A stretch of DNA of 64,000 nt, from positions 1-64,000 of the forward strand of contig WGMQ01000047.1 of NCBI GenBank assembly GCA_016125005.1. The letters are read 5' to 3'. Both the position numbers and the translations under genes were made by a program. The notes under the pieces were generated by a model. That model worked only from the letters and a program-made list of their open reading frames with translations, was not told where the DNA came from and did not search any database. Shown piece after piece: positions 12,896-61,375 of this stretch. Position 1 is the first letter of the stretch, and each line of letters opens with the position of its first letter. This DNA is from a bacterium (GTDB lineage: Bacteria; Sumerlaeota; Sumerlaeia; SLMS01).

Positions 12896-13558
12896 GTGGC
12901 CGGTCCCACCCCGATCATTAGCGAGCCGGTTGAGCTGTACCTCGCGCGATTGGCCGTGACCGACTGCGGCGTGCCGCCGGTTATCGAGGAACTCCACGCC
13001 GAGGCCAGTCGCCGCTGCTTCCCCATCGTCGGGCCAGAGGTCGGTCGCTTCTTCCGCCAGCTTGCCCTCCTGCGCCATCCGCGTCGGATCCTGGAACTTG
13101 GTAGCGGGTTCGGCTACTCGGCGCTGTGGTGGGCCCTTGGCGCGCCACAGGCAGAGATTCACCTCACAGATTGGAACCAGAACCTCCTCGACGAGGCGAT
13201 GCGCCATGCGGCGGCGCTCGGCGTGGCTCACCAGTTGCGCACCCACCAGGGGGACGCGCTGGTCATTGCCGAAGATTTGCCCGGGCCGTGGGACATCGTC
13301 TTTGCCGACCTGAACAAGGAACAATACCCCGAGGTGATCGACTTGGCGCGCAGGGCCCTTGCTGTCGGTGGGGTGCTCGTCTTCGACAACATCCTGTGGC
13401 ACGGTGAAGTCGCCGCGCCCGCCGCGGAGCAGCCTCCACCGGCCCGCGCGGTCGTCGAAGCCACGCGCCGTCTATACAACGATCCCGACTTCGCATGCAG
13501 CATCCTCCCCATTCGCGACGGCGTTCTGCTTGCTGTCAGGACCGGAGTTTCCCCTTGA
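12896..13558 (+). CDS. O-methyltransferase (class I SAM, COMT-like)
   Basis: [17 protein letters not shown]...[42 protein letters not shown] start. Confidence 0.88.
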
Positions 13559-13920
13559 GCGATCCCAAGCTGACACGACTGGCGGAAGAGCTGGGCGTCA
13601 CCACGGCCCGGCGCCACATTTTCCTCTGCTGCGACCAGACCAAGCCAAAGTGCTGTGGGCGTGAGGAGAGCCTTGAGGCCTGGGAATACCTGAAGCGTCG
13701 CCTCAAGCAACTCGGCCTGAGCGACAAGGGCGGCATCATGCGCACCAAGGCAAACTGCCTTCGCCTGTGCGAGCGGGGACCCGTCGCCGTTGTCTATCCC
13801 GAAGGTGTCTGGTACCATGACTGCCGCCCTGACGTGCTGGAGCGCATCATCCAGGAACACCTCATCGGCGGTCGGCCAGTGCAGGAATACCTGATCGTGG
13901 AACATCCACTGGAGCCGTGA
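13555..13920 (+). CDS. (2Fe-2S) ferredoxin, thioredoxin-like fold
   Basis: [15 protein letters not shown]...[30 protein letters not shown] cysteine pattern; TTG start overlapping the upstream stop. Confidence 0.82.
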
Positions 13921-14049
13921 GCCATCAGTCAGGGCGAACATCCCTGTGCCCGCGTCTTTCGCCCGGCACTTTCTTTTCGCCGTTGACCCTACACCATTGT
14001 CCTGCCAGTAAAACGGGGTTGCAACCACGCTCGCAGGGAGTTGGCATCA

Positions 14050-15357
14050 ATGCGTCCACGCTTGTCCTTCGTCCTGTTTTGTCTCCTGACTGCCTGGCTC
14101 ATGACGGGATGCGATCACTCCGAGCGCGAGCCCAAGCGCTCGCCCACGGCCACCCCCCCGGCGAACCCCAATGAACTTCGCATCTACATGGATCCGATCG
14201 GCAGGGCGGGGCTCCTGAACCGCATGATGGTGCAGGAGTTCTCCGAGCAGTTCGGAATCCCCGTGCAAATTATCAGCAACGTGGACGATGCCACCGACCG
14301 CCTTGACAAGATCACCCAGATCCTGGCGAGCCGCACGTCGGGCATCGACATCCTGATGATCGACTTCACCTGGGCGCCCATGCTTCACCAATACACCGAG
14401 GATCTGGCGCCGCGGCTGGGCCGGGAAAAGGACGAGTTCTTCCCTCAACTCATCCGCCAGAATACCGCTCAAGGGAAGCTGGTGGGCATCCCCATGTACG
14501 TCGACACGGGCATCCTCTACTACCGCGCCGACCTGATGGAAAAGTACGGCTACAGCGAGCCACCCGTCACTTGGGAAGAGATGGCCGCCATGGCAGCCCA
14601 TGTGCAGGAAGAGGAACGCAAGCGCGGCAACCTTGAGTTCTGGGGACTGGCTCTGGCTGCCAATGCGCAGGAGAACCTGACGTGTATGGCTCTCGAGTGG
14701 CAGGCCTCCGCGGGTGGTGGCACCATGGTGACGGACGGCGGGCGGGTGACGGTCAACAATCGCGGCACGGTCGAGGCTCTCACCATGGCGCGCGGCTGGA
14801 TTGGCAAGATCGCCCCCGAGCAGAGTCTCTCCATGGATAACGAAGCGGCCCGGCGCCAGTTCCAGGAGGGCAATGCGCTCTTCATGCGCGGCTGGAGTTA
14901 TGCCTGGGAGTTGCTGAACGACGACACGTCGGCGGTCCGTGGAAAGGTGAAGATCGCCCTTCTTCCCGGCGGCGTTGGCGGGCGTCGGTCCGTCCTCGGC
15001 GGCTGGCAGTTGGCCATTTCCGCCTCCAGTACCCGCAAGGATAACGCCTGGAAACTGGTCCAACACCTCACCTCGGCGAGGAGCCAACGTCTCCGGGCCA
15101 TGGAAGGAGGGTTCCCTCCCACACGCCCGAAGCTGTATGAGGACCCGAATCTCCAGCGCAAGCAGCCCCACCTGCCACTGATCGGCAGCGCGATCGGCAG
15201 CTCCGTCATGCGCCCCTCCCGCGGTGCTCGGAACCTCTACGGTCAGGTTTCCATGATCTACTTCACCGGTGTCTCCGACGTGCTCGCGGGCAGGAGCAAC
15301 CCGGAGGTCGGCCTGGACGTGATGGAGGCCAAGATGAAGCGAGCCTTGGAGCGCTGA
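14050..15357 (+). CDS. ABC transporter extracellular solute-binding lipoprotein (family 1)
   Basis: Lipobox LMTGC; GIPMYVDTGILYYRADLMEKYGYSEPPVTWEEM; ALFMRGWSYAWELLND. Confidence 0.9.
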   Translation: MRPRLSFVLFCLLTAWLMTGCDHSEREPKRSPTATPPANPNELRIYMDPIGRAGLLNRMMVQEFSEQFGIPVQIISNVDDATDRLDKITQILASRTSGIDILMIDFTWAPMLHQYTEDLAPRLGREKDEFFPQLIRQNTAQGKLVGIPMYVDTGILYYRADLMEKYGYSEPPVTWEEMAAMAAHVQEEERKRGNLEFWGLALAANAQENLTCMALEWQASAGGGTMVTDGGRVTVNNRGTVEALTMARGWIGKIAPEQSLSMDNEAARRQFQEGNALFMRGWSYAWELLNDDTSAVRGKVKIALLPGGVGGRRSVLGGWQLAISASSTRKDNAWKLVQHLTSARSQRLRAMEGGFPPTRPKLYEDPNLQRKQPHLPLIGSAIGSSVMRPSRGARNLYGQVSMIYFTGVSDVLAGRSNPEVGLDVMEAKMKRALER

Positions 15358-15437
15358 GTTTACCCTCGCGCACGATTCCCGCTTCCTCTCACTCTCGGCC
15401 ACTGGACTACTCGAAGGAAGGCATCGGGAACGGACGA

Positions 15438-17000: not shown

Positions 17001-19373
17001 TCACTGCGGGAGACTCGCGGTCTCCATTTCCTTGATGGTTCCGTCGAGCAGGAACTCCATCACGGCACCCATGAGCGAGGCGCGTTGCTCCGCATCCTGC
17101 AGTGTCTCGAAGGGCACGCCGGACGCAACCACGCGCCCAGTCGTTGTCGAGGCCAGCATCGCGGTCGGGCCGCCCTCGCCGAACTGGAGAAGCGCCTTGG
17201 CGCCTTCGGCCGGCGTCAGCCCCGAGGCCACACGCACCGGATAGACCGCACCATCGTTACCCTTCTCGAAGCCCAGCGGTGGGAACTGGGTGAAGACCTT
17301 CGCTCCCACGACGGGGCGGATGTCCGCCGCGTCCGACAGGGCCTTGGAATCGGCCACGCCGAGCGTCGCGAGGAAGCCCTTTCCGTTCTCCGCTGAGGCG
17401 AGATCGTTGGCCCATTCGGTGCCGGAGACAAGCAGCGCGCCGTCACCGGACAGGTACTCACGAACGAGCGCCTGCTCGCCGGTGGAGAACGCCTCGGTGG
17501 CGCCCTTCTCCTGACCCAGCATCCACACCACGGCGGGATAGCCCTTCAGCGTGTCGCTGGTCAGGGCCTCGTTGCTGGTGGAGTTGAAGGCGATGCCACG
17601 GGCCGCCAGCGCACTGCCGTGCTGGATCGCGTAGTCATGACTGTTCATGCGATCCAGGAACCCGCGCTGCGCCCCGTCCTCTTGAACGAGATTCATCTCT
17701 CGATCGAGGCGGTCGAAGCCATTGACCAACAGCACCCGGCGCTCGCCCTCAAGCGGCGTGCGGACGGCCAGCGTTTCGGAGGGGAAGGACTCGCCGCCAG
17801 CGTTGCGCGCCGCCACGCGGTAGTAGCGCGTTTCGCCGGGAGCAGGCGCCGGGATCAGGACCGAGGTCTTCTCTGTCAGGCCACCGTTGTCGAAGCCCTT
17901 GCCGTTCGGCGAGGTCATGACGCGGTAGGAAGTGGCCGGATCGCCATCCTTGGCGGGCTGCCAGGTGAGCCGCACGCCATCGCCCTCGGCGATCGTGGCG
18001 AAGTGCGTCGGAACGCTCGGAAGCAGCGTCGTGGTGGTGAAGCCGTCCATGTTCTTCGTGTAGAACTCGACGACGCCCTCCATGGTGGAGCGGGCGATCA
18101 CGTCGCGGAACTGCGGGTGCAGGATGTAGGCGGCGTCCTCCGCGTTGTCATGGAAGCCATACTCGAACAGCGCCGCCGGCATGCGGTTGTTGTTGCGTGG
18201 ATTCGTCTCACCAAGCCAGCGCGTGATGCGACCATAGTCCGCCCAGGTGGCATCCCATTTCTGACGCACACCGGCCATGATGCGCTCATGGACGATGTTT
18301 TGAAGTTCGAGACCGGCGGGGAAACCGATGAAGTAGTCCTGACCTTCCCACGCATTGGGGCCATAGATGAAGCTGCTCAGCCCCCGCGCGCGCCCATTCG
18401 CCGCGTTGGTATGCCAGGCGATATAGATCGACTTGCCCAGTTCCCAGTCCTCGCACTCCCACTCGGCCCACATGGGCATGGCACTGACGCTGTTGAAGCC
18501 ACGCGTATCGGCCTCCGGTGAATAACCGGCGAAGAGGGCGTAGTACATGCCCGACTCCTCCCAGCGCGGTTTGCCGCTCGGGCGTCCGTCGGCCAGCGTG
18601 TCGCCCATGCCGCCGCCGAAACGAATCGCGTCGATGACAAAGGCACTCCCGGGCCCGTCTGTATGATTGTCGATGACCACCGAGCCCTTGGCCGCGTCCT
18701 TCCCCTTCTCGAACCAGTAGCGGCCCAGATAGGTCCAGGTGCCGCCGTCACGATTAAGGTCCTGAGTCCAGACCGTCGTGCCGCCCGTGTGATTGATGAC
18801 GAAGCGCGCATCGGTCGCCGTCGGGAGTCGACCTCCCTCCTTCGTGCGCGCCACGGTCGGAGCCGTCCGATACCACGCGTAAACCGCGTAGTAGCCATCC
18901 TCAGGAATCTTGGGGGTGAAAGTCGCCGATGCGGTGGCCTCGCCCGACGTGGACTCGGTCCAGATGCAGTCGTTCTGCCAGGTGTTTGGTCCGCGCCAGG
19001 TCTCCCACTTGCCCGTCAACTTCACGTCCTTGGAGGAACCCGCGTCGAGGATCACCATGTTGGTGTTCATGTCGCGCTCGCGCGTTGTATAGACACGGGC
19101 GCCCGCATTCCAGAGATAAGGAACGAGGAACTGGAGCACGGCCTCGGCGTTGCTGTGGTCCTCGATCAGGCCGTGACTGACGCCGCGCTGTGTGCCCCAG
19201 CGACCATTTGCATTCAGCATCCAGCCGTGGCCGGGACTGACAAAAACCGATGCGCCGGAAAGGGCGCCGGGAGGCTGCGGATCGGTGACAGGTTTCAACT
19301 CATCGAAGGCCGTTGCGGCGCTGGAAAGCGCCAGGACGGACGCCATGAAGGCAGAAAGGAAGGTCTTTGCCAT
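17001..19373 (-). CDS. Secreted N-acetylmuramoyl-L-alanine amidase-like protein with inserted golvesin-like domain and Fn3-like region
   Basis: Signal peptide MAKTFLSAFMASVLALSSAATA; VFVSPGHGWM; GLIEDHSNAEAV...GARVYTTRERD; golvesin-like GYYAVYAWYRTAPT...GSAFVIDAIRFGGGMG; IAWHTNAANG; LFEYGFHDNAEDA. Confidence 0.78.
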   Translation of the reverse strand: MAKTFLSAFMASVLALSSAATAFDELKPVTDPQPPGALSGASVFVSPGHGWMLNANGRWGTQRGVSHGLIEDHSNAEAVLQFLVPYLWNAGARVYTTRERDMNTNMVILDAGSSKDVKLTGKWETWRGPNTWQNDCIWTESTSGEATASATFTPKIPEDGYYAVYAWYRTAPTVARTKEGGRLPTATDARFVINHTGGTTVWTQDLNRDGGTWTYLGRYWFEKGKDAAKGSVVIDNHTDGPGSAFVIDAIRFGGGMGDTLADGRPSGKPRWEESGMYYALFAGYSPEADTRGFNSVSAMPMWAEWECEDWELGKSIYIAWHTNAANGRARGLSSFIYGPNAWEGQDYFIGFPAGLELQNIVHERIMAGVRQKWDATWADYGRITRWLGETNPRNNNRMPAALFEYGFHDNAEDAAYILHPQFRDVIARSTMEGVVEFYTKNMDGFTTTTLLPSVPTHFATIAEGDGVRLTWQPAKDGDPATSYRVMTSPNGKGFDNGGLTEKTSVLIPAPAPGETRYYRVAARNAGGESFPSETLAVRTPLEGERRVLLVNGFDRLDREMNLVQEDGAQRGFLDRMNSHDYAIQHGSALAARGIAFNSTSNEALTSDTLKGYPAVVWMLGQEKGATEAFSTGEQALVREYLSGDGALLVSGTEWANDLASAENGKGFLATLGVADSKALSDAADIRPVVGAKVFTQFPPLGFEKGNDGAVYPVRVASGLTPAEGAKALLQFGEGGPTAMLASTTTGRVVASGVPFETLQDAEQRASLMGAVMEFLLDGTIKEMETASLPQ

Positions 19374-19378
19374 TGGTG

Positions 19379-19711
19379 TCAGTCCTCGTACTTGAGATTG
19401 ATGGGCTGGAGCGGCATGGCAGGAACCGCATACGCCACGCGGCCCGCGTCCGTATAGACGACCGAGCGATAGCGCGCGCGCTGGACCTCGTACATGGCCT
19501 GGATCAGGCCCGTCTTGGTGTGGGACTGGTGGGTGGGCTCGCCAAGGATGGCCTCCACCTCGGCGCGGGTGGTGCCCACCTTGGGCACGTAGGCGGAACG
19601 ACTTTCCACCACCAACTCTGCTTCGCTCTTGGTCGGGGAGGGATGCGATCCCCCGCACCCCACCGCTCCGACAATCAGAATGAGCCACAAGGCTCGGCAA
19701 CCCCACATCAT
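19379..19711 (-). CDS. Small lipoprotein, SmpA/OmlA (BamE)-like
   Basis: Lipobox VGAVGC; VPKVGTTRAEVEAILGEPT. Confidence 0.65.
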   Translation of the reverse strand: MMWGCRALWLILIVGAVGCGGSHPSPTKSEAELVVESRSAYVPKVGTTRAEVEAILGEPTHQSHTKTGLIQAMYEVQRARYRSVVYTDAGRVAYAVPAMPLQPINLKYED

Positions 19712-23816: not shown

Positions 23817-25088
23817 TCAGCCTCTGATTTGTCCTTCACCGAAGACGATCCACTTGGGGGTCGTTAGCTCGACCAGCCCCATCGGCCCGCGGGCGTGCAG
23901 CTTGTCCGTCGAGATGCCGATTTCCGCCCCGAGACCGTATTCGCCGCCGTCGCTGAAACGCGTCGAGCAGTTGATGTGCACGCAGCTGGAGTCCACCATG
24001 CGGGTGAAGTTCATCGCGTTGTCGTGGTCGCGCGTCACGATCGTGTCGGTGTGGTGGCTGCCGTAGTGGTTGATGAACTCCACGGCCTCCTCGAAGGTGC
24101 GGACGACCTTCACCGCGATGATGAGGTCAAGGTACTCGGCGTACCAGTCGTCCTCGGTGGCGGCCTTCGCGCCGGATACGAGACGCTGGGTCCATTCGTC
24201 GCCACGGATCTCGACCTTCTTGTCCTGCAGCGCCGCGCAGACCTTCGGCAGAAACTCGTCCGCGATGTCCGCGTGGACCAGCAGTGTCTCGGCGGCGTTG
24301 CAGACACCGGTGCGCTGGGCCTTGGAGTTCACGGCGATCTTCACCGCCATGTCCTGGTCCGCGGAGGCGTCCACGAAGACCGAGCAATTGCCGTCGAGGT
24401 GCTTGATGACGGGGATCTCCGACTCGCGGCTGATGCGCTCGATGAGCGGCTTGCCGCCACGCGGGATGATGAGATCGACGAGACCCTTGAGCTTGAGCAG
24501 CTCGCCCACCGCTGCGCGGTCGGTGGTCGGGATGAACTGGATGGCTCCCTCGGGGAGACCGACGGAGGCGCTCGCCTCGTCCATGAGACGGGCGAGGATC
24601 GAATTGGAGTGAAAGGCCTCGCTGCCGCCGCGCAGGATCGTGGCGTTGCCGCTCTTGAGGCAGAGCGCCCCCGCGTCCGCCGTCACGTTCGGGCGCGATT
24701 CGTAGATGATGCCGATGACGCCGATGGGCGCGCGAACCTGGCCGATGCGGAGCCCATTGGGGCGCGTGCGGACGTTGAACATTTCGCCGACCGGGTCGGG
24801 GAGCGCGACAATCTCGCGCAGGGCCCCTGCCAGTGCGGCGATGCGCTTGGGGTCCAGCTTCAGGCGGTCGATGGCGGCAGCTGAAAGGCCGTTGGCTTGC
24901 GCCTTCTCCAGATCCTTGGCGTTCTCCGCCACGATCAGGTCTGTGTTCTCCAGGAAGGAAACGGCCATGGCCTCGATGGCGGCGTTCTTGGCCGCAGGCT
25001 TCAGGGCCGCCAGCTTCAGCGCCGCGCGCCGGGCCTTGCGTCCCATTTCCTGCATCATCTCCGCCAGCGAAAGCTCCATCGTGCTCAT
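23817..25088 (-). CDS. proA: Glutamate-5-semialdehyde dehydrogenase (gamma-glutamyl phosphate reductase)
   Basis: RAPIGVIGIIYESRPNVTADAGALCLKSGNATILRGGSEA; GLVDLIIPRGGKPLI; STRFSDGGEYGLGAEIGISTDKLHARGPMG. Confidence 0.96.
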   Translation of the reverse strand: MSTMELSLAEMMQEMGRKARRAALKLAALKPAAKNAAIEAMAVSFLENTDLIVAENAKDLEKAQANGLSAAAIDRLKLDPKRIAALAGALREIVALPDPVGEMFNVRTRPNGLRIGQVRAPIGVIGIIYESRPNVTADAGALCLKSGNATILRGGSEAFHSNSILARLMDEASASVGLPEGAIQFIPTTDRAAVGELLKLKGLVDLIIPRGGKPLIERISRESEIPVIKHLDGNCSVFVDASADQDMAVKIAVNSKAQRTGVCNAAETLLVHADIADEFLPKVCAALQDKKVEIRGDEWTQRLVSGAKAATEDDWYAEYLDLIIAVKVVRTFEEAVEFINHYGSHHTDTIVTRDHDNAMNFTRMVDSSCVHINCSTRFSDGGEYGLGAEIGISTDKLHARGPMGLVELTTPKWIVFGEGQIRG

Positions 25089-25216
25089 CGTCCAAAACTC
25101 CTGATATGCGGGGTGCATCATCGCCCCGTGGTTCGGAAAGGCTTGTGACCCGGGCCCTTCGCGTCAAAGAGAAGTTGTCTCTCCACTCCTCTGCGCGACC
25201 CAGCCAAGGACTTGCG

Positions 25217-26419
25217 ATGCCCCGATTCGAGTGGTCCCGTTCCGGCGAACCGAATCCGCCGCCCGTTGGAATCCCCGCGTTGGTGGAGCGATGGGGCAGC
25301 GACACCGCGGAGGCCCACCGCGTCATCCAGGGCGAAAACCTTGCCGTCTTGCAGGCTCTCCTTCCCGAGCTGGAAGGGCAGGTCAAGCTGGTCTGCATCG
25401 ACCCGCCCTTCTTCACCGGAAAGGCTTGGTCCATGAAGTTCCCTGGGCTGGAGACCGAGCGCCACGCCTTCACCGATTCGCGGTGGGGGAGCGTCGACGG
25501 CTTTCTGGATTTCCTGCACCGCCGGCTGGTGTTGCTTCACCGGCTCCTGGCCGAGGACGGCTCCCTGTTCCTTCATCTGGACTATCGCGTCGCGCACTAT
25601 GCGCGGCTGGTGATGGAGGAGGTGTTCGGTGCCGACCGGCTGCTGAACGAGATCGTCTGGAGCTATGCCTCCGGCGGCGGCTCCGGCGAGCGCTTTGGCC
25701 GGAAGCACGACACGATCCTCTGGTTCGCGAAGGGACCACGCCACACGTTCAACGCGGACGCAGTGCGGGTGCCCTATCGCGCGGCCATCGCGCCGAGCCG
25801 CCGCGACAGCTTTCACGAGGACGGCATGGTGGCGCCTGACGTCTGGGAAATCAGCCGTGGTCGCAACGGAGACGGAGCCACCGGGTATCCCACGGAAAAG
25901 CCCGCCGCGCTGGTGGAGCGGATGATCCTGGCGGCCAGCAACGAAGGAGACCTAGTGCTCGATGCCTTCGGCGGATCGGGGAGCCTTGCCGTGGCCGCTG
26001 CCTCGCTGGGGCGGCGGTGCATCTCGATCGACCAGAGTCCCCTCGCTATCCACTGCCACCGGCGCCAGCTTTCCACGATGGATGTGCCGTTCCGAATCGA
26101 GCTGTATCATGGGGATATCCAGTTGGGCAGCCAGACGGGCATCGATCTGAGGCCGGAGCAGGGGCTTCTTGGGACCCAGTTTACCCTCTGCGGGAATGTC
26201 GTTCCGGAATTGGACGGCTGGGCGCTGGAAGAAGTGGGCCCCAGAAGTGGGCCGCTAAAACCGCTCTGGCTTGTCTGGAGGGAAAAAAAAGATCGCCAGC
26301 CACGAATGACCAGCGATCCCATTTCCCTGACGGGCCGAAAGCCCTTTCTACGAATCAGTGCCTGGACGATTGACGGCACAATGTTTGAGAACCTTTACGA
26401 GCTACCGATGCGCGACTGA
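25217..26419 (+). CDS. DNA methyltransferase (N6-adenine/N4-cytosine, DPPF motif)
   Basis: VKLVCIDPPFFTGKAW motif IV-like; YPTEKPAALVERMILAASNEGDLVLDAFGGSGSLAVAAASLGRRCISID motifs X/I. Confidence 0.88.
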   Translation: MPRFEWSRSGEPNPPPVGIPALVERWGSDTAEAHRVIQGENLAVLQALLPELEGQVKLVCIDPPFFTGKAWSMKFPGLETERHAFTDSRWGSVDGFLDFLHRRLVLLHRLLAEDGSLFLHLDYRVAHYARLVMEEVFGADRLLNEIVWSYASGGGSGERFGRKHDTILWFAKGPRHTFNADAVRVPYRAAIAPSRRDSFHEDGMVAPDVWEISRGRNGDGATGYPTEKPAALVERMILAASNEGDLVLDAFGGSGSLAVAAASLGRRCISIDQSPLAIHCHRRQLSTMDVPFRIELYHGDIQLGSQTGIDLRPEQGLLGTQFTLCGNVVPELDGWALEEVGPRSGPLKPLWLVWREKKDRQPRMTSDPISLTGRKPFLRISAWTIDGTMFENLYELPMRD

Positions 26420-32329: not shown

Positions 32330-33217
32330 TTACCGGCCCAGAGTTTTGGCGAGTAGGCGGCCGACGGCGTCCCTGGCGACCATGCGCCCCAGGCGGAGCA
32401 GCCGTGGCCATTTGGGGGGCACTGTATAGACACCGTAGCCCGGCCAGATAAATCGGAAGTGATGAGACTGGTTCACTTCCCGCTCCGCCTCCTCCCACGT
32501 GCGGCAGCCGGGGAGCAATGTGCCAGGCTCCAGATCGCGCAGATGGCAATGCAGCACGCGCGACATGGTCCGGATGAGGCAGGGTTGAGCCAGCGGCGTG
32601 TTCCACTCCTCGCCGATGATGAGTTCCCGCGCATCCGACTTATAGACAGCGTTGCGGAACGGAGGCTGGTCACGCTGGCGATCCGCGGTCGTGGCCTGAT
32701 CAATCGGGTGTCCGTTGCGCTTGAGGAACGAGGCGGCGTATCCGGCACGCCAAGCCTCCAGAAGTTGCATCATCACGGGAGTGCGGCGATAGGCGAAGAG
32801 CCCCATGCTGCGCTCGGGGAAGATGTCCGGCGCATCCGCCGAGTTGCGGCTGTTGGGATCGCGGAAGTTCCGATAGCTGTCGCGCTCCGGCGCCAGCTTG
32901 CAGGCGTAGTCATAACGATCGAGGCAGTCGAAGAGTTCGTCCAGCCGTCCCATCACCCAAAGGTCGCTGTCCAAGCCCAGGGTTCGCTCGAAAGGTGTCT
33001 CAAGCCACGCGACGATTCGGTTGTAGTTCCGCGCGGCGCGACGTTCAGCCGGGATGATGACGATCTCGGCTGGGAAGTCGGATTCGACTTCCACATCAGT
33101 GTGGACGACGACAGGGAGTTCAGGGTGGTGCCTGCGCAGGCTCCTGAGCAGTTCGCGCGTTTCGCGAAGCGACTCCGCACCGGCGGCAGTGATGATGATT
33201 CCGCGCTCGCGCGTCAT
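32330..33217 (-). CDS. Glycosyltransferase-like protein (GT-A fold, DSD motif)
   Basis: GIIITAAGAESLRETRELLRSLRRHHPELPVVVHTD...TLGLDSDLWVMGRLDELFDCLDRYD. Confidence 0.6.
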   Translation of the reverse strand: MTRERGIIITAAGAESLRETRELLRSLRRHHPELPVVVHTDVEVESDFPAEIVIIPAERRAARNYNRIVAWLETPFERTLGLDSDLWVMGRLDELFDCLDRYDYACKLAPERDSYRNFRDPNSRNSADAPDIFPERSMGLFAYRRTPVMMQLLEAWRAGYAASFLKRNGHPIDQATTADRQRDQPPFRNAVYKSDARELIIGEEWNTPLAQPCLIRTMSRVLHCHLRDLEPGTLLPGCRTWEEAEREVNQSHHFRFIWPGYGVYTVPPKWPRLLRLGRMVARDAVGRLLAKTLGR

Positions 33218-34204: not shown

Positions 34205-36631
34205 TTACCTGTCTTCGGTGATGGGCCGCGGCCTTAGCGAGCCTTCCGGCAGCCAGCGCTTCAGGGAGTTGACGAGATCGCTGTCGGAGAGCGGCTTGGT
34301 GAGGAAGTCATTCATGCCCGCCTCCAGACATTTCTCGCGGTCGCCCTCCATGGCGTTTGCCGTCAGGGCGATGATCGGTGCCGTTCCCTTGCTCGAGGGC
34401 AACGCCCGAATGGCTCGCGTCGCGTCGTAGCCGTCCATCTCCGGCATCTGGCAGTCCATCAGGATCACGTCGTACTTGGCGCGGCTGACCTTTTCCACCG
34501 CCTCGACACCGTGCGAGGCCACGTCCACCTCGCAACCGAGGCGGGATAGCATCGTCTTGGCGACTCGCTGGTTGATCATGTTGTCCTCTGCCAGAAGGAG
34601 TCGGGGAGGGCTGCCATCGGGCATGACAAGGCGATGGGCGGTCAGCTTCGCAACGATGGTGCTGGGGGCGGCCGGCTCGGGAACCAGCGCGAGCGGTAGC
34701 GTGAACCAGAAAGTGGAACCGCGCCCCGGCTCGCTTTCGACCCCGATGGTCCCACCCATCAGTTCCACAAGCTTGCGGCAGATCGCGAGCCCGAGCCCCG
34801 TTCCGCCGTGGCGACGTGTCGATGTTGAATCCAGCTGGCCGAACGCCAGGAAAAGGCGGTGCCGCTGTCCCTCTGGAATACCAGGCCCCGTGTCCTTGAT
34901 CCGGAATGTATAGACAAAGCGATCTTCCCCGTCGGCCTTGCCGTCCACGCTTAGGCGAACCTCCCCCCGGTCGGTGAACTTGAGCGCGTTACCGATCAGG
35001 TTCAGGAGGATCTGGCGGAGACGGCGGTTGTCGCCTTCTACATGGCGGGGGAGCCGATCAGGGAAGTGGAGCTTGAGTTCGAGGTACTTGCAGGTGGCGC
35101 GGGAACTCAGAAGGCGAATGACTTCCTCGCAGACGAGGGAAAGTTCGAATGGCTCGTTCCGCACTTCCATCTTGCCCGCTTCGACCTTTGAAAGATCGAG
35201 GATGTCATTGATGAGCGATAGGAGAGCCTCAGCCGACTGAACGACGGTACGGGCCTGGTCGGACTGTTCCTCCGACAAGGGCGAATCGACCAGCAGGTTT
35301 GCCATGCCGATGATGCCGTTGAGCGGCGTCCGAATTTCGTGGCTGACCGTGGCAAGGAACTCACTCTTGGCGCGTGTCGCTGCCTCCGCCGCATCACGGG
35401 CAGCGATCAGGTCGGCCTCGTGTTGCTTGCGATCGGTGACATCGCGGGTGGTGATGGCGAGGCCGTCGCCCACGGCCACGACCTGATGCTTGAGCCACGC
35501 GCCGCGCAGCCCGGGAGCATCAGTCTGGTATTCCTCCTCCAGCGGGATGCGCGTTTCGACCACGCGGACGAAGCGGTGAAGATAATCTCCGGCGAGGATC
35601 ATGGAAAAAATCGGCGAGAATCGCTGCCCGATCAGGTCGGCGCGCTCGCGCGACAGCATGGCAGCACCGCGGTTGTTCGATTCGACGAACTCGAAGTCCT
35701 CGATGATCCCGTCGGAACTGCGGACCGCGCGCAGCAGGTAGAAGGAATCGAGGCCACCCTCCGCTGCCGCGCGGAATCGGGCTTCGCTCTCCTGAAGTGC
35801 CTTGGTCGAACGGCGCTGTTCGGAAAGATCCCGGACGACAGCGATGATCTCCTCGCGGCCATTGGCCGCCACGGTCGTCAGCGTCACCTCGCTGTAGAGC
35901 TGAGTGTCGTTGCCGCGACGGAACACCCAGTCGAAGCGGTGCAGCCCCTTCAGCTCTGCAAGCGCGATCATCTGCTGGAACTTCGGCCCCGATGGGCGTC
36001 CATCCGGCTGGATGACCGGAGAGATCGTACCGACCTCCACATTCAGGAGGGCCGATTTCCCATCCACGCCAAGGACCCGCATCGTGGCCATGTTGCAGTC
36101 GAGGATGCGGCCTTCGTACAGCATGATGATCGGGTCGCCCAGCGAATCGAACAAGCGGCGAAAGCGCTGCTCGGCCTCGACGCGGCTGGTGATGTCGAGC
36201 TGGGTGCCTGCCATGCGGATCGGCGCCCCGGAAGGATCCTTCTCGACGACCGAACCGCGATCCAGGATCCAGCGATAGGTGCCATCGGCGCCGCGCAGGC
36301 GATACTCGCTCTCGTAGGTGGTGGTTTTCCCCTCCAGGTGTTGCTGGAGTTGCTGGAATACCATCTCGCGATCATCGGGGTGAAGGAGCTCGGCCCAGGA
36401 CTCGTGTCCCATTCCGCGGCTGCGCTCGGGGAAGCCCAGCATCCGCAGCCATCCCTCGTTCACCCACCCCTTGTTGTCACGAATATTCCAGTCCCAGGCG
36501 CCCAGACCCGTCGCGTTCAGGGCAGCCCAACACGCGGAGAGAATCGGTGCCGGTGGCAGACGATCACCCGTCCCCCCCGTCTGCTCCGTTTCCCCGGGAA
36601 TGCTGGCCGGGAGTTGACCGCCTTCCTCCAT
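34205..36631 (-). CDS. Hybrid sensor histidine kinase (multiple PAS, HisKA, HATPase, receiver)
   Basis: [92 protein letters not shown]. Confidence 0.95.
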
Positions 36632-36657: not shown

Positions 36658-37737
36658 CTACCCTATCGGTATACCGAACAGGCGGACTCGGAACCAACCC
36701 TTTTCGCTTCCCCAGCCAAACATTGTCCAGAGCGGGCCGTGGCGGGACTTGAGCAGTTTCCCCGTCTTTTCGTCGCGCTTGTTGTAGTCATTCCAGAGCA
36801 GCCCGAAGAGCAGGATGCGGGCGTTGACCCGGGTGAACCGGGCGGGCTTGGCTCCGTCGCCCATCGTCTCGGTCACCTTGCGCCAACCCATATAGCCCGC
36901 CATGCCGAATAACGGGCCATGACCCGATATCTCGAAACTCTTCCGTTTTCCCGGGCTCACGGGGTTCTTGTCGCGGAGATCGAAGCTAGACCACAATGTG
37001 GGCCCGAGAACTCCGCCAAGCAGCAGGGGAGTTGTCAGGCGCACGAGTGAGTAGGTGCTGTCGCGGTAGTGGGGCTTCACCGTCTCAAGCCGGAGGTTAG
37101 CAGGACCAAGGGTGTGGAGCGAAAGAAAGCCGCTGATTCGGGTGTTGTTGTTGTGCTCCGGCTTTTCGCCGCGGATATCTGCGGGAATGTGGAGATGAGT
37201 GAACAGGAGAGGGAATCCGCCGATGCGGGCAATCTTCCCTTCCTGGTAGCCTTTCGATCGGATGCCTGTCGAGAAGGGATTCCACCAGATGCTCAGGGCC
37301 CGGATCGGTTCTGCCTTTTCCCGGCCGTAGGTACTCATGCGGTAGTTGAAGATGAATGGGAGCGAGGGAAGGAGTCCGGGAACGGATAGGTCGTGCCAGC
37401 GGAGCGACAGGATGCTCAACTCATCCTGCCCGGTCCGCTTCGACTTCTTTACGTCCGCCACCTTCACGAACAGGTTAAAGGGAATTGGCACTCCCCACAT
37501 CTTGACCAGGTCGGTATCATCGTCTGCGCCCTGATCCGAAGCATGGCTCGACTTCTTCTCTTTGTTCGAGGTCCGGGGGCTCGCGTCGTAGGCGGGCCAA
37601 AACTCCGGGGGGAGCGCTTCGCCGTGGCGGGGCAACTCTACCGCCTCGTAGAGCGAAGTCCGGTCGTTGACGCTGCATCCAACCAGCATGCCCAGCACCA
37701 ACGCCATCAGCGCCCAAAGCCAAACCGTCCCCTTCAT
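36658..37737 (-). CDS. Lipoprotein of unknown function, paralogue of the adjacent upstream gene
   Basis: Lipobox GMLVGC; PRHGEALPPEFW; C-terminus GPLWTMFGWGSEKGWFRVRLFGIPIG. Confidence 0.75.
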   Translation of the reverse strand: MKGTVWLWALMALVLGMLVGCSVNDRTSLYEAVELPRHGEALPPEFWPAYDASPRTSNKEKKSSHASDQGADDDTDLVKMWGVPIPFNLFVKVADVKKSKRTGQDELSILSLRWHDLSVPGLLPSLPFIFNYRMSTYGREKAEPIRALSIWWNPFSTGIRSKGYQEGKIARIGGFPLLFTHLHIPADIRGEKPEHNNNTRISGFLSLHTLGPANLRLETVKPHYRDSTYSLVRLTTPLLLGGVLGPTLWSSFDLRDKNPVSPGKRKSFEISGHGPLFGMAGYMGWRKVTETMGDGAKPARFTRVNARILLFGLLWNDYNKRDEKTGKLLKSRHGPLWTMFGWGSEKGWFRVRLFGIPIG

Positions 37738-53625: not shown

Positions 53626-55536
53626 ATGAGTTTCCTACGCGGATTGATCGGGAAGAAAGAACCGGAGAAGGAAGTTGCCAAGACCGAGGCGGCCGCCAAG
53701 GTCGACAGCACCTCCTCCGAGAGGGTGAATCCGATCGCGGGCCAGGACGGCGCGGCCGCCGTCAAGAGCCGCAAGCCCAAGGTCCCGACCGCCGAGCAGA
53801 AGGCCCACTTCGAGAAGGTCCAGCGCCAGGCGAAGCAGCAGCGCATCGGACGCGCGCTCATCGACCAGGGGCTCGTCAACGACGACATCATCAACTCCGC
53901 CCTGCGCAACTCCAGCGAGGCGGGCACCACGATCCAGAAGAGCTTGGTCCAGCAGGGCTTCGTCAACGAATCCGACGTGCTCGACGCGCTGGCCACCTCC
54001 TTCGGCCTGGAACGCGTCAACCTGCAGGACGTGCAGGTGACCGACGAACTGATCGCGACCATCGACAAGAAGATCGCCGAGAAGTATCGCATCTTCCCCG
54101 TCAGCGCCACCCGCGACGAGGTAGCCGTCGCCATCGCCGACCCGATGAACATTGAGGTCATGGACGACCTCCAGCGTATCCTGGGGCGCCGCGTCCGCGC
54201 GCTCGTTTGCTCCGAGGACGAGATCGACCGCTTCTTCAAGCGCTTCTACGACAAGAACGAGATCATCGGCATCTACGAGAACATGACCTCGGACATGGCG
54301 GAAGCCGAGCGCGCCAAGCGCGAAGCGGAGCAGGAAGTCGACATCACGGAAGAGGACGCCGACGCGCCGCCCGTTGTGAAGTTCGTCGACCTGATCTTCC
54401 GTCAGGCCGTTCACGAGCGCGCCTCCGATATTCACATCGAGCCGAACCGCTCGGGCGTGACGATCCGCTTCCGCATCGACGGCGTGTGCCAGGAAATGCC
54501 CTCTCCGCCGAAGAAGTGGCAGAACGCCATCGTCTCCCGCCTCAAGGTGCTCTCCGGCATGGACCTCGCCGAGAAGCGCATCCCGCAGGACGGTCGTATC
54601 AAGCTCTCCATGCCGGACCGCAAACTCGACCTTCGCGTCTCGCTCCTCCCGTCGATCTACGGCGAGTCCATCGTCATGCGTATTCTCGACCAGAGCAACG
54701 TGCTCCTCGGTCTTGAGGACGTGGGCTTCCTCCCGGACAACATTACGCTCTTCAACAGCCTGATCCGCACACCGACCGGCGTTATCCTCATGACCGGCCC
54801 GACGGGTTCCGGCAAGACGACGACCCTGTACTCGGCGCTCTCCACACTCAACACGCCGGAAGTCAAGATTGTGACGATCGAGAACCCGGTGGAATACATG
54901 ATGGACGGCATTAACCAGGTGCAGGTGAACGAGGAAGTGGGGCTGGACTTCAAGCTCGGTCTCCGCTCGATCCTGCGTCAGTCGCCCGACGTGCTTCTCG
55001 TCGGTGAAATGCGCGACCTTGAAACGGCCGAGATCGGTATTCGTGCGGCGCTCACCGGTCACTTGGTCTTCTCGACGTTGCACACCAACGACGCTCCTTC
55101 CGCCCCTGGCCGCCTTATCGACATGGGTGTGAAGCCGTTCCTCGTGGCCAGTTCGCTGCAGGCCGTCGTCGCCCAGCGACTCCTGCGTCGCCTGTGCGCG
55201 GGCTGCAAGAAGCGCATCGTCCTGAGCGAGGAGGAACTGATCGAGGTCGGCGCCAAGCCCGAGGACATCGAGGCGCGCGAGTCCCTCGGTACCCTTGGTC
55301 CCGTTGGCTGTGATCGTTGCAGCGGCTCGGGCTACAAGGGGCGCACCGCCATCCACGAAATCCTGGTCGTCGACACCCGCATCCGTCAGATGATCATCAA
55401 GGGCGAGTCTGGCTTCCGCATCAAGAAGGTCGCCATCCGCAACGGCATGCGCTCGCTGCGCATGGACGGCTGGCAAAAGGTAAAGCTCGGCCAGACCAGC
55501 ATCAACGAGGTGCTGCGCATCACGCAGGCGGATTGA
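53626..55536 (+). CDS. pilB: Type II/IV pilus assembly ATPase (PilB/GspE)
   Basis: [70 protein letters not shown]; CxxC...CxxC zinc motif. Confidence 0.95.
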
Positions 55537-56392: not shown

Positions 56393-58678
56393 TTATCTGA
56401 CTCGCCTTCTGTTGCCCAAGACAAACCCCGCCAGCCCAAATCCCAGCGCCGTCAGGAACAAACCTGCGCGGTAGCTGAACGGGCGATAGAGCAGCAGCCA
56501 GCCCGGTCCCGATTCGGTGCTCACCTGACGCGACGCGGGTCCGGGAAGCACGCCGTGAACCGCTGAGATGAACTCGATCGGTGCCGTCGAGCCATCGCCC
56601 GATTCCACGACCCAGCCACGATACCATCCGAGTGCGATCAGTCCTTCGCGCATCGAGGTTCCCGGCGGGCTGTCTATACGGATGCTGTTCACGGTCGGGA
56701 GTGTCGTCGTCAGCCGCGGTGCGGCAAGCCACTGCGGCCGATCCAGCTGCCCGAAGGAGACCTGCTCGGTGGCATAGCCGGTGAGCGGCTCGCCGCCGCG
56801 CCAGAAGGGGCCGTCGATGCGGCTGAAGTCGATGTCGCCGGTGCCCTCGCGGAAGAACGCGGCCCCCTTTGCCAGCGGATTGCGGAAGGCGGGCGCCCCG
56901 GGGAGCGACGCCGCCTCGTCTGGCGGGAACGCGTTCGGGTCCACGGGCAATTCGGCGAAGATGTGCGACACGCCGAGCAGCGCCAGCAGCTCCGCGTCGG
57001 GCTGGAACTGACGGAAGTTGCGGTTGAAGGCGTGCTGGAAATCCTTGAAGCGGGCCGTCGGCACCAGCCCCTCCTCGTAGCCATCCACCATCGGGACGCG
57101 GGCCATCACGTTGAGATGCGGCTGAAGGGACGCGGCGCGCCAGGTGATCGGATTGCCCCGTCCAAAGGTCGTCTCCAGATGGCGTTCGCGCACCAGCGAA
57201 TCGTCGTCAGAAAGCGTGAGGCGCGTTCCCCGGTCGTCGAGCGAGGCCTCTGGCCGCGTCACCGTGTTCAGAACCAGAAGCGGCTCCTCCACCTCGGCCG
57301 GGTAGTTAAACTTCTCCTTCCGTGCGGGGAGCCAGAGTGCTGTATAGACAACCAGACCCACCGCCACGGCGACATGAATCCGCCGCGATGCCGCGCGTGA
57401 CAACAACCAGTCGAAACCGAAGGCCGCCATCGTGACCAACGCGAACGAGCCCAGCAGGATGATGCGGGCGGGAACGCGAAAGCCCTGCGCAGGCGGGAGG
57501 ATGCCAAGGAAAAGCTCGTGCAGCGAGTAGCCGGGCTGGGGGAATTCGGTGAAGTCGAGCGCCAGGATGCGCCGCGGGTCCGTGTTTCCGCCGAGCGCCA
57601 GCGCCGCGAAGAGAACGTATAGACAGGCCAGCCCCAGGGCCGCGCGGCGACGCCGTGTGTCAGCAAATGCGAGAAGAGCCAGCACCAAGACCGGGACACC
57701 GACATGGACGCCGTACTCCCCGAAGGCCCGCCGGTTCCATCCTGGATTACCCGCCTCGTCGAGCACAGGATTGCCGTCCGCATCCTTGAGGAAATAGCCG
57801 TCGCGAAAGCTCCCCTCGCGATGCGGGATCAAGTGCGTCAGGAGCACGTCCGGCGGCATGCTGAACGAGATCGCATAGAGCGGGTCGCGGAACTGGCGCC
57901 GCGAGTCCTTGTTCAGCTCCAGCGTCGGCAGCAACTGCACCGCGACGAGCAATCCCGTGAGCACACCCGCCAGCGCCACGCCACTGGCTGTCCTCAGCAA
58001 CCAGGCACGGTCGCGACGATGCTTCGCCAGCGCGTATAGACCAAGCAACGCCATCAGCAAATGGCCATAGAAGGCCTCCTGTGGATGCCCCGTGAGGAAC
58101 TGCAACGCCGAGCAACCCGCGTAGGAGAGCGCAAAGGCCCGTATAGACAAGCGCCTCAGCAGGAACAGCCAGCCGAGCGCCGTCAGCAGCGGTATATACG
58201 AAGCTGCCGCCACCTGGTTGATGTGTTCCTGATGCCCCCAGAACCACGCCACGCAAGGGAAGACTCCGCCCAGCACAACCGATGGCCACCGCGTGCATCC
58301 CAGTGCCACGCGCAGCCAAACCCACGTCCCCACCGCGGCCAGCGAAAGGTGCAGCAGGTTGCCGATGTTCATTGCCATGTGCGGAGGCAGGAACCCGTAA
58401 AGCAGCCAGTCGGGTGGATACAGGACCGCGTGCTGGAGCGAGGCTAGCAACGGTGCTCCCATGAACGACCAGGGATTCCAAAGCGGCACGACGCCGCGGT
58501 GGAAGATCGACTCGGTGAGGAGGAACTTCACGGGCCAGAAAAGATTCGCCGCGTCGCCGCCCGACTGCATGGCATCGAGCCTCAGCAGTGGCGCATAAAA
58601 CACCACCGCCAGCAACGCGCAGGCGACAGCTTCAAAGCGGCGGATCGGCTCCGCATGGGACGGGGAAATGGCTTCCAC
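56393..58678 (-). CDS. YfhO-type multi-pass membrane protein
   Basis: GGDAANLFWPVKFLLTESIFHRGVVPLWNPWSFMGAPLLASLQHAVLYPPDWLLY; multiple TM segments; GTG start chosen. Confidence 0.8.
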   Translation of the reverse strand: MEAISPSHAEPIRRFEAVACALLAVVFYAPLLRLDAMQSGGDAANLFWPVKFLLTESIFHRGVVPLWNPWSFMGAPLLASLQHAVLYPPDWLLYGFLPPHMAMNIGNLLHLSLAAVGTWVWLRVALGCTRWPSVVLGGVFPCVAWFWGHQEHINQVAAASYIPLLTALGWLFLLRRLSIRAFALSYAGCSALQFLTGHPQEAFYGHLLMALLGLYALAKHRRDRAWLLRTASGVALAGVLTGLLVAVQLLPTLELNKDSRRQFRDPLYAISFSMPPDVLLTHLIPHREGSFRDGYFLKDADGNPVLDEAGNPGWNRRAFGEYGVHVGVPVLVLALLAFADTRRRRAALGLACLYVLFAALALGGNTDPRRILALDFTEFPQPGYSLHELFLGILPPAQGFRVPARIILLGSFALVTMAAFGFDWLLSRAASRRIHVAVAVGLVVYTALWLPARKEKFNYPAEVEEPLLVLNTVTRPEASLDDRGTRLTLSDDDSLVRERHLETTFGRGNPITWRAASLQPHLNVMARVPMVDGYEEGLVPTARFKDFQHAFNRNFRQFQPDAELLALLGVSHIFAELPVDPNAFPPDEAASLPGAPAFRNPLAKGAAFFREGTGDIDFSRIDGPFWRGGEPLTGYATEQVSFGQLDRPQWLAAPRLTTTLPTVNSIRIDSPPGTSMREGLIALGWYRGWVVESGDGSTAPIEFISAVHGVLPGPASRQVSTESGPGWLLLYRPFSYRAGLFLTALGFGLAGFVLGNRRRVR

Positions 58679-58807
58679 AGTGGCCTCCAACGCGAATCCA
58701 CCCCGAAGTGTAGCCGCGGCGCAATGGCAGGGCGCACGATTCGCATGGAAGTTACAGCCGAATCTATGCTGCACTCCCTTCGGCGGCTGTGCGGAGGACC
58801 GTCGAGC

Positions 58808-59422
58808 ATGAGAGAACTGACAGTGCGGGCCTTCACCCTCATCGAGCTACTACTTGTAGTCGCCATCATTGCGATCCTGGCCGCGATTGCTGTTCCCAAC
58901 TTTCTGGAGGCCCGCACGCGTGCTGCAGTGGCCCGCAGTCAGGCGGACATGCGCACGATGGCGACGGCGCTCGAGGCGTACTGGGTGGACTGGGCCTGGG
59001 CGCCGTACCACGGCGAGGTACTGGCAAGCGGGGTCGTCAACAGCCCCGCCAAAGCCGCCGGAATTGGCACCGTCGAGTTCGCCCCCGGCTACCCCATCAC
59101 CACGCCGGTAGCCTACCTGACAGCCATTCCTCGCGATCCCCTGCTAAAGCCCGGTGGGCCAGACGATCTCCGCGTCTATGGCTACATCCAGAGCCGACTC
59201 ATGAAGAACATCCTGTTGGGGCGCGGCCTCACGGACTCCGCCAATGCCATCGAGCCGACCTACGGCGGCTGGCGTCTATACGCCGCAGGCCCCGATGGCG
59301 ACAAGGGACCGGACGCCAAGACCAATGTCCTCTACGATCCCACCAACGGAACGCTAAGCGACGGCGATCTGGTTCGCACCCAGAAGCAACCGGTCCTTAC
59401 GACGCCCCGGGACGAACAGTAG
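58808..59422 (+). CDS. Type IV pilin-like / type II secretion pseudopilin (GspG-like)
   Basis: Prepilin signature RAFTLIELLLVVAIIAILAAIAVPNFLEARTRAAVARSQADMRTM. Confidence 0.9.
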   Translation: MRELTVRAFTLIELLLVVAIIAILAAIAVPNFLEARTRAAVARSQADMRTMATALEAYWVDWAWAPYHGEVLASGVVNSPAKAAGIGTVEFAPGYPITTPVAYLTAIPRDPLLKPGGPDDLRVYGYIQSRLMKNILLGRGLTDSANAIEPTYGGWRLYAAGPDGDKGPDAKTNVLYDPTNGTLSDGDLVRTQKQPVLTTPRDEQ

Positions 59423-59486
59423 TCCGCCGCCGCGGGGGAGCGCGGCGGCGGTTGCACAGGAGAGAGGATTGAGGATGAAGCCTTGG

Positions 59487-60269
59487 TTACTTCTCGATCA
59501 CGGTCGCCTGAAGACGCCCTGAGCCAGAGCCCGCACCCTGGTTGATTCGGGGGATGGTGATGGTCACGTCGTCCCCTTCGCGCTTCGTCACGGCCTTCGC
59601 GACGTCCGCGTCGCTCGGAAGCGAAACCGCGTTGCTGAAGCTGCTCACGCTTTCCGATCGCGAGACATTTCCAGAGGGGTCTCGGTTTTCGGTGGTGCGC
59701 CGCTGCTGGCCGGAAAGCGTCACCGAGTCAGAGTTGATTTGGACCTCGAGCTTCCCCTTCTCGACACCGGGGACCGACGCCTTGATAATGTAGCTGTCAG
59801 GTGTCTCGCTCATCGTGACCGACGGGCCGCTTCCGCCCACAACGCCGAAGGAGAATCCGGCTCCCGGCCCCATGTTCTGAAGCATCCGGTTCTGCAGGGC
59901 GCGCATCTGGCTGATTCCCGAGATCGGATCCCAGGCATTGCTGAAGAACGGGTCGTTTCGGAAGAATGAATCGAACGGATCACTGCCCGCCGAGGCACCG
60001 GCGCTGGCGTTGCCGTTCGGGTCGTTGTAGATGACAGATGCCGCGTCGGCATCACGGAGCGCCGTGCGAAGTTCTTCCATTGCCTTGCGGACTTCCGGGT
60101 CGCGGCGGAGTTCGGCGGAGCGAAGAATTTCCTCTGCCTTCTGGAGCGTGCGTGCGGCTTCTTCAGGACTGGTGGCGGGCGACTGCTCTCCGGCTCGAAC
60201 ACCGATGCTGATGATCGTGGCCATCGCGAGACCCACCACCACGGCAATCGACTTCTTGTGAATGGTCAT
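59487..60269 (-). CDS. Hsp20/alpha-crystallin-domain protein with N-terminal signal peptide
   Basis: MTIHKKSIAVVVGLAMATIISIGVRAGEQ; alpha-crystallin core YIIKASVPGVEKGKLEVQINSDSVTLSGQQR...FSNAVSLPSDADVAKAVTKREGDDVTITIPR. Confidence 0.82.
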   Translation of the reverse strand: MTIHKKSIAVVVGLAMATIISIGVRAGEQSPATSPEEAARTLQKAEEILRSAELRRDPEVRKAMEELRTALRDADAASVIYNDPNGNASAGASAGSDPFDSFFRNDPFFSNAWDPISGISQMRALQNRMLQNMGPGAGFSFGVVGGSGPSVTMSETPDSYIIKASVPGVEKGKLEVQINSDSVTLSGQQRRTTENRDPSGNVSRSESVSSFSNAVSLPSDADVAKAVTKREGDDVTITIPRINQGAGSGSGRLQATVIEK

Positions 60270-60355
60270 GGTGGCAACCTCTCGTTGGAACTCGGGGGTG
60301 TTCCTGCTGCCCCCGAGTATCAGAGACCCGGGCAATCGGCATGATGGTTTGGTCG

Positions 60356-61375
60356 TCACGCGACGCCGAAGAAGTCGACCCCCTCGCGATAACCCCGCTC
60401 GGCCAGCAACCCGCGGATGCGACCGCGCGCCCCGTCGCTCCCCGCGGCAGCGAGCTGAATCGGCGACGAATCGCCGGCCGGTTGGATCGCATCGATGCCC
60501 AACACTGGCACGCCGCCGATGCGCGACCCAATGCGCCGAGGATGCACGTCGATGAAGGCATGAATCGTCACGCCCTCCGACGCGAGCAACCGCGCCAATG
60601 CCTTCCCCGTGGGACCTCCGCCGGAGAGCACCACGCCTCTCTCCCGCACGGCCGGGAGCCGTGCCAGGTGATGCGCCTTGCAGGCGAGGAATTGCTCCAG
60701 CGAGTAGCGCCCATCGGTTCGCGAAAGACGTCCCGGCGAATCGCGCCATTCCAGCAGCGTTTCCTCCACCTTGCCGATGCGCCAGCCACCTGCTAGCACC
60801 CGCAACCACAGGTCGTGGTCCTCCGCCCACGGCATGTCGCGATAGCCGCCGAGGTCGCGCAACGCCTCGCGGCGCATCATGACACTCGGGTGCGCCACCG
60901 GGCTTTCAATGAACCGCGCCGCGGCGATTTCCTCCGGGGTCACCACCGAGTTCAGCCACTCCACATAGCGCCGCATCCCCGCGTTGTCCGGCACTTCTCC
61001 GAAGAGACGGACCAGACACGATACCACGGCGAGTGTCGGGTCCGCCTCCAGCATCGCAAGCTGCCGAGCAAGTCGCTCCGGCGCGCAGCGATCATCCGCA
61101 TCCATGCGCGCTAGGAACGACGCCGAGGCCCATTCCACGCCCTTGTTCAGCGCATAGACAATGCCGTGACCCACAGATTCACGCAGCACGCGCACGCGAC
61201 TGTTGCGCGCTGTATAGACAGCCACTGTGGCGCTGGTGTCGTCCGTCGATCCATCGTCCACCACGATGATTTCGATGTCGCGAAGAGTCTGCGCCAGCAG
61301 CGAATCCAGCGCTTCTGCGATGGTCGCCGCGCCGTCCCGAACTGGCAGGATGACACTGACTAGCGGAGCCCCCAC
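60356..61375 (-). CDS. Glycosyltransferase family 2
   Basis: VSVILPVRDGAATIAEALDSLLAQTLRDIEIIVVDDGSTDDT; ARMDADDRCAPERLARQ. Confidence 0.95.
   Translation of the reverse strand: MGAPLVSVILPVRDGAATIAEALDSLLAQTLRDIEIIVVDDGSTDDTSATVAVYTARNSRVRVLRESVGHGIVYALNKGVEWASASFLARMDADDRCAPERLARQLAMLEADPTLAVVSCLVRLFGEVPDNAGMRRYVEWLNSVVTPEEIAAARFIESPVAHPSVMMRREALRDLGGYRDMPWAEDHDLWLRVLAGGWRIGKVEETLLEWRDSPGRLSRTDGRYSLEQFLACKAHHLARLPAVRERGVVLSGGGPTGKALARLLASEGVTIHAFIDVHPRRIGSRIGGVPVLGIDAIQPAGDSSPIQLAAAGSDGARGRIRGLLAERGYREGVDFFGVA

Follow-up and report, generated by a model that had tools for sequence, protein, structure and literature searches.

A dispersed 10-bp word as a candidate DNA-uptake tag in a family within an uncultivated phylum of bacteria

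A 10-bp DNA word, YGTCTATACR, recurs far above chance in the genomes of a single family within a bacterial phylum that is uncultivated, where it is probably a DNA-uptake self-recognition tag maintained by transformation. The first-pass annotation had put uptake forward as a testable guess; judged from sequence comparison it is the best-fitting explanation, and we offer it as a proposal. The window (the whole 64,000-nucleotide stretch analysed) contains 12 exact copies of the core octamer GTCTATAC, against 0.12 expected from dinucleotide shuffles (at most 1 copy in any of 100 shuffles) and 0.16 under a second-order Markov model, making it the strongest outlier among the window's 8-mers. All 12 copies reported earlier are present, although one coordinate was off by 10 (34908, not 34918). 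As had also been reported, every copy falls within an open reading frame, and 11 of the 12 read in the direction of the gene, the exception being 56672. The copies and their relevant neighbours are as follows.

13470..13477, plus strand: GTCTATAC, sense, in an O-methyltransferase-like gene (12896-13558)
19087..19094, minus strand: GTCTATAC, sense, in an amidase/golvesin-domain gene (17001-19706)
19452..19459, minus strand: GTCTATAC, sense, in the upstream part of the open frame 17001-19706, whose start codon is uncertain
24833-26419: PF01555 methyltransferase
32424..32431, minus strand: GTCTATAC, sense, in gene 32330-33217
34908..34915, minus strand: GTCTATAC, sense, in a histidine kinase gene (34205-36697)
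53626..55536, plus strand: PilB-type pilus assembly ATPase, given as context only
56672..56679, plus strand: GTCTATAC, antisense, in a membrane-protein gene (56393-58774)
57342..57349, minus strand: GTCTATAC, sense, in gene 56393-58774
57617..57624, minus strand: GTCTATAC, sense, in gene 56393-58774
58034..58041, minus strand: octamer departing from the consensus at one flank, sense, in gene 56393-58774
58141..58148, minus strand: GTCTATAC, sense, in gene 56393-58774
58823..59422, plus strand: type IV pilin-like protein, whose close orthologs are confined to three further genomes rich in the motif
59274..59281, plus strand: GTCTATAC, sense, in the pilin gene 58823-59422, at an Arg-Leu-Tyr site present in G004 too
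61212..61219, minus strand: GTCTATAC, sense, in a glycosyltransferase gene (60356-61375)

The over-representation first noticed in the window is stronger than was claimed. The 4.69-Mb genome holds 1,078 copies of GTCTATAC (576 + 502), compared with 22 of a reversed control word. The excess over a codon-aware background also extends beyond the window, with 248 genic copies seen in 1.126 Mb where synonymous codon shuffling predicts approximately 18. The actual unit is the 10-mer, which is present in 902 copies genome-wide versus 7 with both flanks wrong, and lies approximately 300-fold above chance in the analysed part of the genome. This bears out the flank extension suggested earlier (YGTATAGACR, on the other strand), and in the window the Y...R flanks are found at 11 of the 12 copies, all but 58034. 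Near-matches, previously taken as a decaying or degenerate population, are real but amount to more than decay, forming a graded halo with specific tolerated changes (A for G at position 1 and A for C at position 3). GTCTATAC differs from its own reverse complement, and the 10-mer is near-palindromic without being a full palindrome; GTATATAC, its palindromic version, occurs far less often. The literature searched gave no description of YGTCTATACR, in agreement with the earlier impression that the motif is undescribed.

The motif acts at the DNA level. Every allowed reading frame and both strands are used, far above the codon-shuffled expectation, and orientation tracks the gene rather than the contig strand: in the six large contigs, 52 copies in plus-strand genes are forward and 20 reverse, and in minus-strand genes 10 are forward and 67 reverse. 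Approximately 80% of genic copies are sense, and antisense copies number 27 and 23 where codon shuffling predicts 0.5 and 0.2 (an approximately 50-100-fold excess). Because an in-frame TAG shuts one of the three frames in reverse orientation, and because realisation of the motif is lowest where the frame requires rare codons, the gene-direction bias needs no RNA function. The commonest encoded form, Val-Tyr-Thr, is the top over-represented tripeptide of the sampled proteome, with 115 of its 121 copies encoded by the motif, which shows clearly how proteins can be shaped by a force acting on DNA. Genic copies show no bias towards gene termini.

The sense majority and the prominence of Val-Tyr-Thr could speak for an RNA-level signal, a conserved peptide or the remnant of an inserted repeat, but we consider such readings very improbable. 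All five open coding contexts are occupied, antisense copies are in large excess, one antisense frame is shut by TAG, both flanks count when every frame is pooled, and ortholog alignments show sites gained and lost by substitution and not by insertion (at few aligned sites). All three were rejected on these grounds, and the earlier argument that a conserved peptide could not explain the copies is upheld. Another kind of signal named in the first-pass annotation, a Chi recombination signal or KOPS chromosome-segregation polarity signal, would agree with the mostly genic placement of the motif and with its density, which is close to that of Chi in E. coli. This reading is contradicted by motif orientation, which within single contigs (contigs, not a closed genome) is set by the gene and not by the strand. 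Confinement to one family also speaks against it, leaving a Chi- or KOPS-like role scarcely credible.

Strong enrichment is limited to the window's family, in six of seven genomes, with counts near background elsewhere in a 40-genome sample of the phylum. The six motif-bearing members are graded, from approximately 70 to 250 copies per Mb, and the motif-less member (G003) has 7 per Mb. The motif persists family-wide, with very different counts among relatives and with sites that turn over by substitution. As deep branching within the family is not separated in the ComEC tree, loss in G003 and gain after its split are indistinguishable. Zero copies occur on eight contigs of foreign composition, although these contigs may have contaminated the bin and need not be acquired DNA. 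A search for other dialects, in limited samples of G003, G007, G008, G012 and G020, turned up no dispersed word comparable to the motif. One candidate in G012, GATTACGA, was rejected as mostly tandem hexamer arrays, and an excess of GTCTATCT in G002 was set aside because it looks like Val-Tyr-Leu codons plus the near-match halo. Separately, long gaps of contig C18 in which rRNA was suspected gave no Rfam match, and are therefore probably missed genes.

Outside genes there is no enrichment of the motif except as inverted pairs, which are located at gene 3′ ends directly past stop codons. Inverted pairs after stop codons are known for DNA uptake sequences (DUS) (PMC2397512). Among uptake sequences, closely spaced pairs of this kind are frequent but not a requirement. 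CTAT/ATAG boxes are paired at exactly 8 bp in 54 cases versus approximately 7 expected, and G000 contains 11 triple arrays, several between convergent genes. These arrays, the near-palindromic 10-mer and the clustering of copies in the genome could point to a DNA-binding protein with a regulatory or chromosome-organising role, recruited by the 10-mer and its 8-bp-phased arrays to structure the chromosome or to act where genes end, with sites kept by selection and not by transformation. We hold this to be unlikely, since most copies are single and within genes, rare-codon frames included, counts differ greatly among relatives, arrays are clear only in G000, and no candidate protein was found. 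It is also conceivable, though again doubtful, that the word is an undescribed genome-wide DNA signal without known counterpart: a 10-bp site, bound singly in genes and, at gene ends, in 8-bp-phased arrays that are direct or inverted, and maintained through selection or drive.

A further explanation, that a HIP1-like iterated sequence is kept via a DNA methyltransferase or methylation-linked repair, appears improbable. HIP sequences display similarly extreme iteration within genes, alongside orphan methyltransferases (PMC4390886), and the window itself contains a PF01555 methyltransferase. However, the group to which this enzyme belongs is common to the motif-less sister family, no group of PF01555, the one methyltransferase family compared, tracks the motif, the motif is no full palindrome, and HIP1 reaches 1000-2000 copies per Mb (PMC4390886) versus at most approximately 250.

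For the uptake explanation, we infer that DNA is taken up through a receptor and that biased recombination drives the spread of the tag. A natural-transformation receptor at the surface or in the periplasm, for which part of the type IV pilus is the most plausible candidate, would prefer double-stranded DNA bearing the 10-mer. Tagged fragments would be taken up and recombined more often, tag-creating mutations would spread through biased recombination, and the tag would build up where coding cost is low. Core competence genes are present: ComEC, ComM and PilM were found in 12 of 12 genomes of the order. G003 alone lacks DprA and a double-HHH ComEA-like protein, and since it is 80% complete, gaps in its assembly may account for both. 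Type IV pilus genes occur as well. Against an uptake tag, the motif-less sister family carries competence genes equally, and the motif is mostly genic, unlike Neisseria DUS, most of which are intergenic (PMC2397512). The pilB and pilin-like genes noted earlier in the window are both there, but the pilin is at most a weak lead as motif receptor. It co-occurs with high motif counts only; its C domain is acidic and it has no close ortholog in G001 or G005, both motif carriers, and these two points also weigh against an uptake tag. Pilins shared by G000, G004, G002 and G006 and missing from G003 are, with the ComEA-like protein, candidates for binding the 10-mer. Comparison of 1.5-kb flanks revealed no shared neighbours of the pilin. 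GspH/FimT minor pilins do not track the motif, and among the candidates compared no ComP-like or other receptor was identified.

Uptake-sequence systems are described in the literature searched for two proteobacterial families (Neisseria and Haemophilus relatives). Why and how often self-recognition evolves is a long-standing question, and the motif, if an uptake tag, would add a third case that arose independently, this time in a phylum that is uncultivated. Six graded carriers and one motif-less member would permit a comparative test of which competence component changed at motif appearance, and the same comparison would show the consequences of motif loss. The tag may also sort native from foreign contigs in the family's metagenome bins.

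Several known systems resemble the motif in part. RecBCD/AddAB Chi sites share an eight-base core word, a similar density and a mostly genic location, whereas the motif has no strand polarity along contigs and its orientation follows genes. Cyanobacterial HIP1 is likewise extremely iterated within genes, but it is palindromic, rich in GC and tied to methyltransferases (PMC4390886), whereas no methyltransferase of PF01555, the one enzyme family compared, tracks the motif. Pasteurellaceae uptake signal sequences (USS) also occur within genes in both orientations with one favoured (PMC2346458), although their sequence is unrelated and genic motif copies are without bias to gene termini. Neisseriaceae DUS, which are read by the minor pilin ComP, are unrelated in sequence and phylum to the motif, which is mostly genic and for which no ComP-like receptor was identified. 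The likeness nevertheless covers a 10-12-bp word in hundreds to thousands of copies, restriction to a family, an invariant 3-nt core, a stop codon that shuts one reading frame, inverted pairs at gene ends and absence from foreign DNA (PMC3630211, PMC2397512).

The 12 window copies of the octamer GTATAGAC/GTCTATAC reported in the first-pass annotation are all present, with one coordinate amended from 34918 to 34908. Dinucleotide shuffles yield 0.12 expected copies per window (maximum 1), and a second-order Markov test places the octamer as the strongest outlier among the window's 8-mers. The excess is genome-wide, as that annotation had left to be checked: the assembly in which the window forms the opening 64 kb of contig C35 (G000; 4.69 Mb, 112 contigs, 88.5% complete) holds 1,078 copies (576 forward, 502 reverse) versus 22 for the reversed word. 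Logos of 273 copies show Y at -1 in 95% and R directly after in 93%, and across the assembly YGTCTATACR (reverse YGTATAGACR) occurs 902 times versus 7 for RGTCTATACY, whose reversed control occurs 5 times. The true unit is this 10-mer, not the octamer.

Eight of the 32 sampled G000 contigs (C17, C19, C23, C24, C27, C31, C36 and C37; 151 kb) have zero copies and fewer near-matches, and by tetranucleotide composition they make up 8 of the 9 strongest outliers. In our reading, several genes on them resemble ordinary genes for transport and oxidoreductases from another bacterium. These contigs are probably bin contaminants, despite a reported contamination of 1.35%, or possibly acquired DNA. Since foreign contigs lack copies, native density is ~1 per 3.6 kb. 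Over 975 kb of native contigs, 242 copies of the 10-mer compare with 0.8 expected under a second-order Markov model, a 301-fold excess. Words that differ by one base within the TAT core (positions 4-6) are at about background and A is tolerated at positions 1 (48-fold) and 3 (31-fold), a graded specificity such as a DNA-binding protein would impose.

Gene context was taken from 1.126 Mb called with our own approximate gene caller. Of the octamer copies there, 198 are in sense orientation and 50 in antisense; a further 22 lie outside any called gene, and 3 at edges. When codons are shuffled synonymously, 17 copies are expected in the sense Val-Tyr-Thr frame and fewer than one in each other frame, versus observed sense counts of 115 (Val-Tyr-Thr), 66 and 17, and antisense counts of 27 and 23; the remaining antisense frame includes TAG. 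With all open frames and the antisense strand above expectation, the earlier claim that a peptide cannot explain the motif holds, and the motif acts at the level of DNA rather than RNA or peptide. The share of synonymously possible peptide sites that is realised reaches 95% for Val-Tyr-Thr (the top over-represented tripeptide of the sampled proteome; 121 versus 34, z 14.7). It is 32% and 7% for the two remaining sense frames and 11-14% for the antisense ones, versus 0-5% for shuffled control words. Realisation is lower in frames requiring CTA, ATA or AGA, from which we infer a codon cost. Copies are clustered (CV 1.43 versus 1.02), approximately flat in position along genes and denser in multi-membrane-span proteins (4.0 versus 2.3 per 10 kb). 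Chi and KOPS readings are contradicted because motif orientation tracks gene direction within single contigs.

Octamer copies in the seven genomes of the window's family
G000: 1,078
G004: 969
G006: 930
G002: 477
G005: 274
G001: 247
G003: 26 (control 39)

Background or near-background counts are seen in all five genomes of the sister family, as in the remainder of a phylum sample of 40 genomes. ComEC of G000 and G003 is only ~37-44% identical to that of other family genera, so the motif survived deep divergence within the family. Aligned orthologs show sites gained or lost through substitution without indels (TGTCTATACA versus TGTGCATCCA in a G006/G002 pair; GGTATAGACA versus GGAATCGACT in a G004/G000 pair), while CGTCTATACG is retained in a G002/G006 pair and the Arg-Leu-Tyr site of the pilin is shared by G000 and G004. 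A different repeat family occurs in G012, from another family of the class (L223-L225), with dispersed tandem (GATTAC)n-(GAGCAC)n hexamer arrays and heptamer-type tandem repeats.

Fifteen copies were sampled in G001, a weaker motif genome: 9 in sense frame 0, 1 in another sense frame and 5 intergenic. Among the intergenic ones are two perfect inverted pairs GTATAGACGTCTATAC, located 13 and 27 bp past gene ends. An inverted pair TGTATAGACATCTATACA also lies near a ComEA-like gene (L254, locus position 1731), with a partly altered copy at the matching position in G005 (L253, 1731). In G000, CTAT/ATAG boxes are paired at exactly 8 bp 54 times versus ~7 expected, with 11 triple arrays and none on foreign contigs. 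The arrays below are direct or inverted and mostly between genes, several exactly between convergent genes; some provide a TAG stop codon.

C8:37310 (L002), 8-bp CTAT/ATAG array
C15:113605 (L103), 8-bp CTAT/ATAG array
C15:168032 (L106), 8-bp CTAT/ATAG array
C16:13009 (L107), 8-bp CTAT/ATAG array
C22:28058 (L148), 8-bp CTAT/ATAG array
C28:9050 (L119), 8-bp CTAT/ATAG array

Such arrays may be compound binding sites for the motif's reader. The variant ATCTATAC (78 copies in G000 native contigs, e.g. window 1274; ~22-fold enriched) keeps R at +8, with no effect of the Y rule at -1; as several copies are located in 8-bp arrays, it may be the unit of these arrays and not a degraded copy of the motif.

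We predict, with somewhat better than even confidence, that the motif is an uptake or self-recognition tag, a single known mechanism that would account for the restriction to one lineage, the specificity, the turnover of sites, the lack of copies in foreign DNA, the use of permissive positions and the inverted pairs. That it is instead a chromosome-binding signal seems unlikely, and a modification signal resembling HIP1 of cyanobacteria more doubtful still. ComEC, ComM and PilM are present in 12/12 genomes of the order, and high-scoring DprA and ComEA-like proteins with HHH domains in all but G003, the only motif-less family member, whose HHH hit is Tex-like by its sequence. The link between competence genes and motif is only suggestive, because the completeness of G003 is 80% and the motif-less sister family carries these genes too. 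The window encodes a PilB-type ATPase and a pilin with an acidic C domain. Close orthologs of this pilin (C-domain identity 61-67%) are confined to the other genomes richest in the motif, G004, G006 and G002; best hits elsewhere have 25-35%. From one gene tested and seven genomes, it is a lead as candidate receptor, and may simply be a structural pilin. One GspG/PilA-like pilin has 33-64 matches in each of the 12 order genomes, a large expansion of paralogs. A PF01555 DNA methyltransferase (window 24833-26419, +) has relatives in the motif-less sister family.

The three papers containing either octamer in the searched open-licence literature were mouse, rat or cattle studies without a bacterial-motif link, and none described either in bacteria; an earlier description elsewhere is possible. 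The abstract of PMC7811141 names only Pasteurellaceae and Neisseriaceae for uptake sequences. Most DNA uptake sequences (DUS) of Neisseria are intergenic, whereas the G000 motif, apart from pairs, shows no intergenic enrichment (1.7 by a loose definition or 0.4 by a strict one with small samples, versus 2.9 per 10 kb genic). Close inverted repeats are also frequent among DUS (PMC2397512). In its graded specificity, too, the G000 motif resembles DUS, whose dialects have an essential CTG core in common (PMC3630211).
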